A DNA stretch of 64,000 bases. Origin: an uncultured Aliiroseovarius sp. GTDB taxonomy: Bacteria > Pseudomonadota > Alphaproteobacteria > Rhodobacterales > Rhodobacteraceae. Each line of letters starts with the position of its first letter. The first letter of the stretch is position 1. This document shows positions 52,614-58,009 of the stretch, piece by piece. Under the pieces are notes generated by a model, which was given only the letters and a program-made list of their open reading frames with translations, was not told where the DNA came from and did not search any database. The position numbers and the translations under genes are program-made. The stretch covers positions 1 through 64,000 of the forward strand of contig NZ_CANMFT010000002.1 of NCBI RefSeq assembly GCF_947497285.1, in the 5' to 3' direction.

Positions 52614-52647
52614 GCGCCTATCTGTTCGGAAAGTAGGAGGTATTTGC

Positions 52648-53004
52648 ATGCGCAACGCTGCATTGGTTTTGGGGATCATCGCCGGGATTTGGGGCATGAT
52701 CGTTGGATTTTTCGGCTATGGCTATACCGAAGTGATCGCGCGGATGGGCGAGTTGCCCGATCTGGCCGAACAGGTGGATAATCCGGGCCGGGTCCGCGCC
52801 TTTGCCCTTATCGCGCCGGTTCTTGCGCTGGCGGGTGGTGCGATGGCGCGCTCTGCCGCACAGGTTGGGGGCATCTTGCTGCTTTTGTCCGCGGCCGGCA
52901 TGTATTTCGCTTTTGGCTATGGCGTGTTCACCATGTTCCCAATCGCGCTGGCAGGTCTGGGTGGGCTGCTCGCTCTGGTCGCGGTGAAGCCCGACCCGCA
53001 CTAG
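52648..53004 (+). CDS. Small hydrophobic membrane protein
   Basis: A 118-residue protein with four predicted membrane segments (about residues 3-25, 50-66, 70-86 and 92-110). I do not recognise a named family. Possible role in membrane stress or as a DUF4064-like protein cannot be decided. GGAGG precedes the ATG. It converges on the DoxX gene, eight bases away. Confidence 0.65.
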   Translation: MRNAALVLGIIAGIWGMIVGFFGYGYTEVIARMGELPDLAEQVDNPGRVRAFALIAPVLALAGGAMARSAAQVGGILLLLSAAGMYFAFGYGVFTMFPIALAGLGGLLALVAVKPDPH

Positions 53005-53012
53005 GGTCCGCG

Positions 53013-53561
53013 TCAGCGGATGTTCAGCAGTCGGTCGACAGACAGCGGGCCTGCGCCTTTCAGCACCAAGGTCACCAGCACAACCATCCAGAACAGGCGT
53101 TGATCCAAAATCACGCTGTCGGGAATGCGGTCAAACCATGCGCCCAGCGTTTCGGGCTGCTCAATCCCGCCGTGGCCAAAAAGGTCGGTCAGGCTTTGCA
53201 CGACGACAAAGCCGATCATCCCAAGGGCGGTTAGGCGGGTCAGCAATCCGATGGTGATCAATAGCGGCAAGGCGAATTCGGCCAAGGTGCCCGCGACGAC
53301 CACGGCCCAGTGGAACATGCCAAGCTGCCCGATGTCATACGATGCGGCCTCCATCGCTTTGGGGAAAATCTGCGCATAGGCGCCAAGGCTGGGTTGGAAA
53401 ACGCCAAGCAGGCCGTCGCCCGTTTTAGTCAGCGCCGAGGCCCAGAAATACCCAAGCAAAGTCGCAGCGAAAGTGAAGCGGGCCAGCGTGGGCAGGGTGG
53501 CCGGGGCCAACCGCTCGGCCAAATCGGCAAGCAGGTTATAGAGATTTGCCAAGGCGCGCAT
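53013..53561 (-). CDS. DoxX-family membrane protein, bufferin operon partner (BufD-like)
   Basis: A 182-residue membrane protein with four to five hydrophobic segments; ARFTFAATLLGYFWASALTK near residue 27 and the VVAGTLAEFALPLLITIGLLTRL region near residue 90 match DoxX/DoxD-type proteins. It is the last gene of a minus-strand run precursor - DUF692 - DUF2063 - DoxX, the order described for bufferin (buf) operons, 20 bases after the DUF2063 gene. DoxX proteins may mediate redox or membrane association; the exact role in buf systems is unclear. AAGGA precedes the ATG. Confidence 0.88.
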   Translation of the reverse strand: MRALANLYNLLADLAERLAPATLPTLARFTFAATLLGYFWASALTKTGDGLLGVFQPSLGAYAQIFPKAMEAASYDIGQLGMFHWAVVVAGTLAEFALPLLITIGLLTRLTALGMIGFVVVQSLTDLFGHGGIEQPETLGAWFDRIPDSVILDQRLFWMVVLVTLVLKGAGPLSVDRLLNIR

Positions 53562-53581
53562 GGCGGTATCCTTCCGAGTGT

Positions 53582-54370
53582 TCAGTCTGGTTTGTCGATG
53601 CCGATGATAGAGTGGGTTGCGATCAGAACGCCAAGAGTGGCTGTCAGATCGAAATCAGGTGTGTCTGCCGTGGCAAGCCCCAGCGCGGTGCCAAAGCTGC
53701 AACCCTTGATCAGGGAATTGACGAAACGCGCGCCGCCATCGGGCAGCAGCTCGGCCACGGGATCAAAGCCGATGCGGCTGATCAGGATGGTCTCACCTCC
53801 GCCTTTGGGCTGTGGCCCACCCTTCATGTTGAAATCCCAGATCGCCTTTGCCGGCCATTTGGTGACCAAAACCTCGCTGGCAGGCGACATCTGAAGCCGC
53901 GTCGCCATCAATGCGCGATGGTCCAGCTTGGTCAGGTCATCAGGGTTAACAGGTGCCGCGTCGCCCGCGTGATAGGCACGCCGCAGGGCCAGTTCCAACC
54001 GCGCCACATCGGGCAGGTATTTCAGATGAAGCGTGCCGGGGAAGCTTTCCAGAAACCCCGGAAGGGCGGCCCCGTAATGCATCATAAGGGGCGAGGTTGG
54101 CGGGTGAATGCGTAGGTAAACCTTTGCCATTTCGCGAAAAAATTCGTCGCCGACCAATTTGGCAAGCACCGGGAACCCCGTCAGCATCGCCTCGGACAAG
54201 CCATGCACAACGTTGTTGCGGTAGACCGAGAACCGCTTGGAGGCTTGTTGACCGTCGGGGTTGGTCAGCCCGTCCGGCACCGCCTGTTGTGGATCAAGCA
54301 GCGCTTTGCGAAACGCCGTTTGCGTCACGGTTACATCACCTGTGCGGGGAAGGGTTTCAGCGCGCGTCAT
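53582..54370 (-). CDS. bufC: DUF2063-family protein, partner of the DUF692 oxidase (BufC-like)
   Basis: A 262-residue protein. The N-terminal DUF2063 domain (about residues 15-115) reads FRKALLDP, FSVYRNNVVHGLSEAMLTGFPVL and VGDEFFREMAKVYLRIHPPTSP, the standard pattern. The C-terminal region is less conserved. DUF2063 proteins recruit the precursor peptide to the DUF692 enzyme in known systems. The start overlaps the DUF692 stop (ATGA), so the pair is made together. No signal peptide, consistent with cytoplasmic modification. Confidence 0.9.
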   Translation of the reverse strand: MTRAETLPRTGDVTVTQTAFRKALLDPQQAVPDGLTNPDGQQASKRFSVYRNNVVHGLSEAMLTGFPVLAKLVGDEFFREMAKVYLRIHPPTSPLMMHYGAALPGFLESFPGTLHLKYLPDVARLELALRRAYHAGDAAPVNPDDLTKLDHRALMATRLQMSPASEVLVTKWPAKAIWDFNMKGGPQPKGGGETILISRIGFDPVAELLPDGGARFVNSLIKGCSFGTALGLATADTPDFDLTATLGVLIATHSIIGIDKPD

Positions 54371-55236
54371 GCCGAGACCTGCGCGGCCAATGCTGGTTCC
54401 ATGTGGCGCGTCGCGCGGGCGGCTTCGGCTTCCAGAATGTCCCAATCCGGCACGTCATTGTCCCATTCCACAAGGGCAGGGCGCGCGCCTGCACGGGCGA
54501 TCACGTGGTCAAACAGGGTCCAGACGGGTTCGTCCACCGGCGTGCCGTGGCTGTCAATCAACAGCTTGCGACCCATCTCGTCGGCATCTTCGTCATGGCC
54601 AGCAAGGTGAAATTCTTCAACCAAGTCAAGCGGGTAGGCGTCGATATAGGCGCGTGGATCAAAGTCCAGATTGGTCGCAGAGACAAAGACGTTGTTCACA
54701 TCCAGCAGCAGCCCGCACCCGGTGCGCCGGGCAACTTCGCGCAGGAAATCCGGTTCGGACCACGTGCTTTCAGCGAAGGCCAGATAAGATGACGGGTTTT
54801 CCAGCAGCATCTTGCGCCCAAGGTGATCCTGCACCTCGTTGATATGCGCGGTGATGCGGGTGAGTGTGTTGGTTGTGTAGGGCAGCGGTAAAAGATCGTT
54901 CAGGAACGCGCCGTCATGGGTCGACCACGCCAGATGTTCGGAAAACATCGCGGGGTTCAGCCAATCGACCAAGCGCTTCAGGCGGGCAAGATGTTCGGGG
55001 TCCAAACGGGTTTCACCACCGATGGATAGGCCGACACCGTGCACCGAAATCGGGAAATGCTCGGCCAAGTGGCGCAGTTGCGCCATTGGGCGTCCGCCGT
55101 CGCCCATGTAGTTTTCCGCGTGAATCTCAAGCCAACTGACCGTGCCGGGGTTGTCGATGAGGGCCGCAAAATGCTGCGGTTTGTATCCGACGCCCGCCCC
55201 GTTGGGCAACGTGTTGTCATGGGCAATATCAAGCAT
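54367..55236 (-). CDS. bufB: DUF692-family multinuclear iron oxidase (MNIO; BufB-like)
   Basis: A 289-residue TIM-barrel enzyme of the DUF692 family, whose members use two or three iron ions to modify cysteine residues of ribosomally made peptides. Metal-ligand motifs are readable in order: HAENYMG near residue 39, HGVGLSIGG near 66, SEHLAWS near 98, LENPSSYL near 145, DVNNVFVSA near 180, FHLAGHDE near 213 and DSHGTPV near 230. GGAGC precedes the chosen ATG. It lies between the precursor gene and the DUF2063 gene. Confidence 0.93.
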   Translation of the reverse strand: MLDIAHDNTLPNGAGVGYKPQHFAALIDNPGTVSWLEIHAENYMGDGGRPMAQLRHLAEHFPISVHGVGLSIGGETRLDPEHLARLKRLVDWLNPAMFSEHLAWSTHDGAFLNDLLPLPYTTNTLTRITAHINEVQDHLGRKMLLENPSSYLAFAESTWSEPDFLREVARRTGCGLLLDVNNVFVSATNLDFDPRAYIDAYPLDLVEEFHLAGHDEDADEMGRKLLIDSHGTPVDEPVWTLFDHVIARAGARPALVEWDNDVPDWDILEAEAARATRHMEPALAAQVSA

Positions 55237-55350
55237 GGAAAGCTCCATCGAAAGCTCGGGTCAGGCGGTTGACTTGGCAAAGGGTGCAGGCTGGTCAGGC
55301 GCGATGGTGGCTCCGGCCGGACAACCGGCCAGAGCGATTTGCAACCAGAT

Positions 55351-55656
55351 TTAGCTGGCAGGCAGGTTGGTATCCAGAGCCTCCAACGAGCCCTTCATCA
55401 TCATGCCTTCAGCGTCGGTGACCTCCATGGTCTCGCACGTGCCGGCCGGAACCAGTTTCCAGGCGTTGCCTTGGTAGTCGACGGTGGAAGTGCCTGCGCA
55501 GGTGGTGCCGGGGCCAGCGGCGCAATCGTTTTGACCTGCAAGCGACACACCAAAGCATTTTTCCTGCTCGCCATCAGCGAAGGCGGGCACGGCGCTGGCG
55601 GCAACTGCGGCAGAGACTGCACCAAGAACGGCGACGGTTTTCATGTTGTTGGACAT
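55351..55656 (-). CDS. bufA: Bufferin-type RiPP precursor (DUF2282, BufA-like)
   Basis: A 101-residue exported precursor peptide. The signal peptide covers about residues 1-27 (ending PAFA), leaving a mature peptide of about 74 residues with four cysteines at about 34, 45, 53 and 74. The spacing EKCFG…AGQNDCA…TCAGTS…PAGTC is the DUF2282 pattern. In related systems core cysteines become thiooxazoles and the peptide is linked to copper tolerance in the periplasm; that is recalled from the literature, not shown here. AAGGAAAA precedes the ATG. First gene of bufA-bufB-bufC-doxX. Confidence 0.92.
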
Positions 55657-56059
55657 CAAGTTTTCCTTTCGGGTTTTATTCTCACCGCTCATGGGCGGTA
55701 AGGGAAAGGTAAAGCGTGGGGGGCAGGCGGCTCCATTCACGAACGCGTAATTCACGGCTCCGTTAGCGGGAGTGATCGCTGCAAAGGCGCGTTCGTTGGC
55801 GTGGTGGCGCGTGGCTTGAGCCCGTTAAGCCCTCATATCAATGGGAAAATCTGGGCGATCGGAAAATCGACTTCGCAAACTTTGCGTGACCCGAGCCAAT
55901 TGCGATTTCGAAAGTTTCAAGAAAAGCGCCGTCTTCTTGGCGTTTGTTACAGGCTTTTTGGTGATACTTTCCGTTTGTCACGGGCAATGTGAGGGGGTGC
56001 GACGTATTGGGATAGAAAAAAACCCCCGCGCTTGGCGGGGGTTTAAGGTCTTAGCCCTG
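55657..56059. other. Intergenic region with the bufferin promoter and thrS terminator
   Basis: About 400 bases between bufA and the 3' end of thrS. Near bufA is a hairpin ACCGC/GCGGT (55684-55688 and 55695-55699) in the likely 5' leader. ATTCACG occurs twice at 55735-55741 and 55750-55756, flanked by GGCTCC/GGCTCCG. A short frame at 55801-55992 has no coding signs. The stretch 55760-56010 shows nothing else I can name. Confidence 0.5.
56015..56046 (-). terminator. Rho-independent terminator of thrS
   Basis: AACCCCCGC (56021-56029) and GCGGGGGTT (56035-56043) form a 9-bp stem extended by A-T pairs, loop 5; on the minus strand it ends with seven T. It lies 17 bases after the thrS stop. Confidence 0.9.
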
Positions 56060-58009
56060 CTATTCGGCCAGATCGGGCGGGGTCGCTTCGTGCGCCAGCA
56101 TCCCGGCCACGTCTTCCAACGGCAGCACCTTCGAATGCTTGTCGCCCAAGCGGCGCATCGATACCGTGCCGTCTTCGACTTCTTTCATGCCGCAGGCCAG
56201 AATGACCGGCACCTTGCCGACCGAGTGTTCACGGACCTTGTAGTTGATCTTTTCATTTCGAATGTCAGCCTCTGCGCGGATGCCTTTTGCTTTCAGCGCG
56301 GCGACGACGTATTGCACGTAGTCATCAGCGTCCGACACGATCGAGGCGACAACCACCTGACGTGGTGCGACCCAGAAAGGCAGCTTGCCCGCGTGGCTTT
56401 CGATCAGGATGCCAATGAAGCGTTCAAAAGACCCCAGCGTGGCGCGGTGCAGCATGACCGGGCGATGCTTGGCCCCGTCCTCGCCGATATAATTCGCATC
56501 CAGACGTTCCGGCAGGACGAAATCCACCTGCAATGTGCCACATTGCCAGTCGCGCCCGATGGCGTCGGTCAATACAAACTCCAGCTTGGGACCATAGAAT
56601 GCCCCTTCGCCGGGGTTCAGTTCGCAGTCATAGCCCGCCGCTTTGGTGGCCCCCAAAAGCGCGGTCTCGGCTTTGTCCCAGACCTCGTCCGATCCCGACC
56701 GCTTTTCAGGACGGTCCGAGAACTTGATCGCGAAGTTTTCGAACCCAAGGTCTTCGTAGATCGCGGACAGAAACTCGATGAAGATTTTCGTCTCGTCCTC
56801 GATCTGCGCCTCGGTGCAGAAAATATGCGCGTCATCCTGTGTGAACCCGCGCACCCGCATGATCCCGTGCAGAGCGCCCGACGGCTCATACCGGTTGCAC
56901 GAGCCAAACTCGGCCATGCGCAGGGGCAGGTCGCGATAGGATTTCAGACCCTGATTATAAATCTGAACGTGGCACGGGCAGTTCATCGGTTTCAGCGCGT
57001 TGACGGATTTCTCGCGCGCGTGTTCTTCGTCCACTTCGACGATGAACATATGCTCCTGATATTTTTCCCAGTGGCCCGAGGCTTCCCACAGTTTGCGATC
57101 CACGACCTGCGGCGTGTTCACCTCGACATAGCCGCCGCGCTTTTGCTGACGGCGCATATAGTCCTGAAGCTCTGTGTAGATCGTCCAGCCGTTGGGGTGC
57201 CAGAAGATTTGGCCGGGGGCTTCTTCCTGCATGTGAAACAGGTCCATCTCGCGGCCCAGCTTGCGGTGGTCACGTTTGGCGGCTTCTTCCAGCATGTGCA
57301 GGTGCTTTTTCAGTTGCTCCTTGTTCTGGAAGCCGACGCCATAGATCCGTTGCAACATCGCGCGATCTGAATCGCCACGCCAATAGGCACCCGCCACGCT
57401 CATCAGTTTGAACGCGTCGGCGGGCAGTTGGCCTGTGTGTTGCAGGTGCGGACCGCGGCACAAATCCTGCCAATGGCCGTGCCAATACATGCGCAGCGGC
57501 TCGTCACCCGGAATGGCTTCGATCAGCTCGACCTTGTAGGGTTCGTTATTGGCCTCATAGAATTTCACCGCGCGGTCGCGTTCCCAAATCTCGGTGGTGA
57601 CGGGTTCGCGCTTGTTGATGATCTCTTTCATCTTGGCCTCGATCTGGCCGAGGTCTTCGGGCGTGAACGGCTCTTCGCGGTCAAAATCGTAATACCAGCC
57701 GTTATCGATCACCGGGCCGATGGTAACTTTCACGTCGGGCCAGATCTCCTGCACCGCGCGCGCCATCACGTGGGCGAAGTCGTGGCGGATCAACTCCAGC
57801 GCCTGCGTGTCGTCCTTCATCGTGTGAAGCGAGATCGACGCATCGTCGTTGATCGGCCATTGCATGTCCCAATGGGCACCACCGACCGTCGCGGAAATGG
57901 CTTTCTTCGCCAACGAATTTGAGATGCTCGCGGCGACCTCGGCAGGGGTCACGCCCGCGTCATAGTCGCGCGAATTGCCGTCAGGAAATGTAAGGGAAAT
58001 CTGGCTCAT
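56060..58009 (-). CDS. thrS: Threonyl-tRNA synthetase
   Basis: A 649-residue class II synthetase. Domain order is TGS at the N-terminus (about residues 1-62, ISLTFPDG), the second additional/editing domain with [12 protein letters not shown] near residue 75 and the C-rich CRGPH near residue 180, the catalytic core with motif 2 [22 protein letters not shown] split near residue 365, and the anticodon-binding domain after about residue 540. The zinc Cys is in MNCPCH near residue 340. The start follows GGAGAAGG; ten further upstream codons are not used. Full-length, ordinary housekeeping gene. Confidence 0.96.

Follow-up and report, generated by a model that had tools for sequence, protein, structure and literature searches.

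In Caulobacter vibrioides the operon CC3254-CC3257 encodes Buf1, and its genes follow each other in the order DUF2282, DUF692, DUF2063 and DoxX (PMC3511200). The peptide carries thiooxazoles derived from Cys, chelates Cu(I) as well as Cu(II) and aids growth in copper excess (PMC12452194). Expression is under the control of sigma-F, with NrsF as negative regulator and a GTAACC-N16-CGAA promoter (PMC3511200); the genes sigF (CC3253) and nrsF (CC3252) adjoin the operon. Throughout Buf1 systems a DoxX gene is frequent but non-obligatory. Similar to these, the captophorin clusters (fontiphorin, oxazolin, gonophorin) combine an MNIO with a DUF2063/RRE partner and frequently with DoxX, but their precursors are made up of EGKCG repeats (PMC12668002), whereas the precursor described here is a DUF2282 peptide with four Cys. 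The methanobactin enzymes MbnB/MbnC share the MNIO family and metal-ligand-type motifs with the present system and differ from it in precursor, partner and product.

The window, i.e. the whole stretch of 64,000 nucleotides that was analysed, belongs to an uncultured Aliiroseovarius sp. whose genome comprises 3.37 Mb on 21 contigs. Four consecutive minus-strand genes had been proposed at 53013-55656 in the first-pass annotation, and these coordinates are exact to the base (Table 1). The claimed four-base overlap of the DUF692 and DUF2063 genes is present as a common ATGA at 54370-54367. Content, order and families agree with the published Buf1-type clusters (PMC12452194), as the earlier reading of the gene order had suggested, and BufB scores above the cut-off of the bufferin maturase model NF050167. 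We conclude with a probability of about 0.9 that the locus is a Buf1-type bufferin operon. It is a fresh example of an already published system and ordinary for its lineage.

Table 1. Coordinates of the genes and putative regulatory features of the bufferin locus (positions in the window).
Feature	Position	Strand	Description
bufA	55351..55656	-	Buf1/DUF2282 precursor, 101 aa; ATG 55656, stop 55351
bufB	54367..55236	-	MNIO (DUF692) maturase, 289 aa
bufC	53582..54370	-	DUF2063 partner protein, 262 aa
bufD	53013..53561	-	DoxX-like membrane protein, 182 aa
Intercistronic stem-loop	55310..55335	-	GCTCTGGCCGG-TTGT-CCGGCCGGAGC, one G-T pair, no T-tract; 3' of bufA stop; window z -3.5
Putative operator	55737..55765	-	TNACG-N4-CGTGA-N3-ACG-N4-CGTNA; 29 bp, 80 nt upstream of bufA start

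The locus was compared with its nearest relatives by BufB, the best 80 of 583 confirmed loci. The complete set of four genes is present in 78 of these 80, and the two exceptions (L032, L096) are both cut by contig ends. This co-occurrence is far above chance. Closest among the named loci by BufB are four from Aliiroseovarius with 81-83% identity, and the remaining loci of the best 80 belong to the Roseobacter side of Rhodobacterales. DUF2282 was found in 42 of 61 relatives' genomes, in 20 of the 21 genomes sampled from the genus (own genome counted) and in 181 of the 246 genomes of the family sample. Since DUF2282 is widespread in the genus and in the family, and the four-gene set among the best 80 loci, the operon can be regarded as a routine part of the lineage. 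The only exception in the genus sample (G013) contains neither DUF2282 nor the operator pattern nor the gene downstream of the operon, and this triple absence suggests loss of the whole segment.

BufA matches DUF2282 (PF10048, Pfam) with an E-value of 1.3e-25 and contains four Cys in the contexts EKC, NDC, TTC and GTC, as had been stated for the peptide before; no NCBIfam model matched it. A single hydrophobic stretch (residues 8-26) is evident from hydropathy, and the AFA-DG right after it resembles, judged by eye, a signal-peptidase site. Both observations support the signal sequence that had been proposed for the peptide. In Buf1, modification is reported for the two central Cys alone, and the first and the last form a disulphide (PMC12452194); by analogy, the central Cys of BufA (NDC, TTC) would be the expected modified pair. 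In some of the loci compared (L047, L083, L091, L108, L111) bufB is preceded by the best bufA match at a distance of 277-470 bp, where the usual gap is short, and L083 shows a second DUF2282 ORF between bufA and bufB. Tandem precursor genes are therefore likely in some relatives.

The maturase was assigned by a match of BufB to MbnB_TglH_ChrH (PF05114, Pfam; E 7.3e-105) and by its score of 378.9 bits against NF050167 MNIO_BufB ("MNIO family bufferin maturase", NCBIfam; curated cut-off 310). The NCBIfam models HvfB, ApyH, MbnB and ChrH were matched as well, each under its cut-off; for the MbnB equivalog the score is 66.1 bits versus a cut-off of 325. In the PDB, 3BWW was found with E 8.5e-45, together with 8HCI and MbnB chains. 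Residues H101, E146, N147, D179, H210, D228, H230 and E257, which include iron-ligand-type residues, align with the MbnB motifs and are invariant in an alignment of 20 BufB sequences. D259 is likewise invariant in this set, whereas the next residue, Asn260 in comparison to Phe in 3BWW, is variable. In FonB an Asp acts as catalytic base and is followed by Phe, and the substrate-facing site of DUF2282-type MNIOs is described as lacking conservation (PMC12668002). An invariant D259 with a variable neighbour fits this reported pattern, and D259 may correspond to Asp249 of FonB.

BufC exhibits a DUF2063 domain (PF09836, residues 16-107) with E 4.5e-25 and 88.2 bits against a Pfam cut-off of 27.2. 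Its match to the HvfC family of NCBIfam (E 5.7e-10) is under the cut-off, and neither BufC nor its alignment matched any PDB sequence. The earlier assignment of the last gene to DoxX could be upheld in part: position and conservation agree with it, whereas the Pfam score is weak and under the cut-off (PF07681, E 3.1e-4, 21.7 bits versus 23.6). Because of this score the assignment leans on position and conservation, a BufD homologue being located after bufC in 78 of the best 80 of 583 loci. The match to HvfX (NCBIfam, E 2.1e-5) is under its cut-off as well; hydrophobic stretches are seen in the hydropathy profile. On the plus strand, a convergent small membrane-protein gene (52645-53004) ends 8 nt from the end of bufD. 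It shows weak similarity to DUF4064 (E 2e-5, under the Pfam cut-off), and an ORF cluster resembling its homologues occurs at the same place in 68 of the best 80 loci.

Between bufA and bufB the transcript can form a stem-loop. Relative to dinucleotide shuffles, 64 of 79 loci reach a folding z-score below -2 in the first 50 nt that follow the bufA stop, and the median is -3.2. The same threshold is passed in the interior of bufB in 2 of 79, in the interior of bufA in 1 of 79 and ahead of the longest bufA ORF start in 9 of 79 loci. After bufD it is passed in 38 of 78, so that a hairpin alone is not special to bufA. In all 20 genus loci a stem-loop folds no more than 85 nt from the bufA stop. Of 99 regions, 57 contain a perfect stem of 8 bp or longer, among them 14 of the 20 genus regions, and their inner arms come in 35 different sequences; in single-base shuffles the frequency of such stems is 0.8%. 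So many inner arms with retained stems indicate that the structure was kept while the sequence changed. An Rfam scan of the window gave 0 matches.

We infer that the hairpin is an mRNA-stability or processing element that may raise the amount of precursor over that of the enzyme. Elements of this kind are known in Rhodobacter photosynthesis operons. A leaky terminator or attenuator at this site is rather unlikely, even though the position between precursor and enzyme genes would suit it and partial termination would yield the same ratio, since a TTTT run follows the bufA hairpin in only 2 of 79 loci. Apart from this stability or processing element, a stem-loop in the 5'-leader ahead of bufA was considered and rejected: 41 of 102 leaders, that of the window included, contain perfect stems of 5 bp or more, and shuffles equal or beat the score in 22% of cases on average.

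A role in copper handling and the thiooxazole chemistry are assigned to this operon from the literature and would apply to it by family membership. That the operon is a bufferin by descent and responds not to copper but to a different metal (zinc, cadmium, gold) or stress (oxidant) seems improbable to us. The Caulobacter homologues do respond to chromium and cadmium via sigma-F (PMC3511200), MerC fusions suggest further metals (PMC12452194), and the operator found here differs from the Caulobacter sigma-F site; on the other hand, the four Cys of Buf1 are all present in the peptide, BufB lies above the bufferin equivalog cut-off and the Caulobacter Buf1 was reported as a copper chelator (PMC12452194).

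Alignment of 20 upstream regions from the genus revealed the conserved block TAACGGAGCCGTGAATTACGCGTTCGTGA at 55765-55737. Read on either strand, this block fits the operator pattern, once with 0 mismatches and once with 1, pointing to one near-palindrome with four CGTNA half-sites. This is the single place at up to 1 mismatch in the own genome, and no second one was found there within 1 or 2 mismatches. Within 2 mismatches the operator is present in 19 of the 20 genus upstream regions; the twentieth (L005) is cut by a contig end, and the corresponding genome contains an operator copy at the end of another contig. Of an extended set of 97 upstream regions, 74 contain a match with no more than 1 mismatch and 86 one with no more than 3, a level that none of 970 single-base shuffles reached; the comparison is circular in part, since most of these regions had served to define the pattern. 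The set combines the 20 regions from the genus with 77 of the 80 loci (among the 77, L032-L035 duplicate genus genomes); L096, which has no bufA, as well as L040 and L103, whose core was missed by the selection rule, were left out.

In the family sample, the operator occurs with up to 1 mismatch in 90 of 246 genomes, in total 110 sites, of which 27 are exact and 83 have one mismatch. A control pattern read backwards gave 0 matches in most genomes of this sample and 1-2 in some. Among the listed exact copies, 25 of 27 stand beside a bufferin operon: for 23 the distance to a listed DUF2282 match is 181-340 bp, and two more (L153, L154) adjoin operons confirmed by tblastn. The other two exact copies are in G130 and G205, for which no DUF2282 match is listed. 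Of the one-mismatch sites, 33 are near a listed DUF2282 and 28 away from it; for the genomes of the other 22, no position is listed. Overall, at least 58 copies with up to 1 mismatch (56 and the two more) stand next to a DUF2282 gene, versus 181 genomes with DUF2282; at this stringency the pattern is thus not seen in most DUF2282 genomes of the family, and many family members have a more degenerate site or none. Inspection of 11 regions with a site not beside a listed DUF2282 showed that two (L153, L154) actually adjoin bufferin operons. The sites of the other nine are inside the longest ORF (L149, L152, L155, L156, L158) or between the ORFs shown (L148, L150, L151, L157), and no common gene was seen in these nine regions. 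The copy at L148:2767-2795 is exact and is found between genes that look ComM-like and sigma-32-like by eye; this genome is not listed with DUF2282 and the site is possibly due to chance.

Upstream of bufA in other genera of the family the operator was found within 1 mismatch in two of six tested loci. It was not found there in any of the four loci tested outside the family (at least 6 mismatches). Absence outside and patchiness inside the family indicate a lineage feature and not a bufferin-wide one. Among the listed titles and abstracts on bufferins, DUF2282 and DUF692, none mentions the operator or the hairpin, and the main texts of PMC12452194 and PMC12668002 contain none of the words hairpin, terminator, stem-loop, operator or promoter; the operator is therefore only possibly new to print.

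The regulator, left unnamed in the first-pass annotation, can now be narrowed down. No NrsF was found in the own genome (99.97% complete) with a positive Caulobacter control. With up to 2 mismatches, none of the 40 GTAACC-N16-CGAA matches of the window is located upstream of bufA at 55657-56060, and the total of 40 is at chance level (shuffle mean 42.5). In contrast to Caulobacter, a different conserved element occupies this region. Without NrsF and a sigma-F-like site, the Caulobacter switch seems not to apply. Of the ORF clusters surrounding the 80 loci, the 40 with the widest distribution were judged by eye from their first residues, many of them being out of frame, and no regulator was recognised next to bufA. 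In 25 of the best 80 loci a gene that appears MarR-like by eye lies at a distance of about 5.5 kb.

A dedicated regulator encoded away from the operon would act on the operator. Somewhat short of even odds, we tentatively propose a dedicated unlinked transcription factor with essentially one genomic target, which binds as two dimers (or a tetramer) to the 29-bp quadruple half-site and forms a second, independently evolved bufferin control circuit replacing sigma-F/NrsF in this Rhodobacteraceae lineage. It is quite improbable that the element is an ECF sigma-factor promoter and not a repressor or activator operator, since, although Buf1 clusters elsewhere contain sigma factor and NrsF genes (PMC12452194, PMC3511200), the fit to both strands, the missing second genomic place that would be expected for an autoregulated sigma gene and the lack of NrsF argue against it.

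For this operon the following sequence of events can be envisaged. A regulator encoded elsewhere would bind the four half-sites upstream of bufA and thereby switch the operon, and the hairpin after bufA would keep the precursor message in excess over that of the enzyme. BufA would be made with its Sec signal peptide, and in the cytoplasm the iron-dependent MNIO BufB, aided by BufC, would oxidise the two central Cys to 5-thiooxazoles. After export and cleavage of the signal, the outer two Cys may form a disulphide, and the modified peptide would then buffer excess copper in the periplasm, supported by the membrane protein BufD.

Bufferins are common among the sampled Rhodobacteraceae, and their control in this genus and in part of the family seems unlike the well-studied Caulobacter case. 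An operator with a nearly single target offers a direct handle on the metal sensor, and the protein that binds it should reveal the signal to which the peptide responds.
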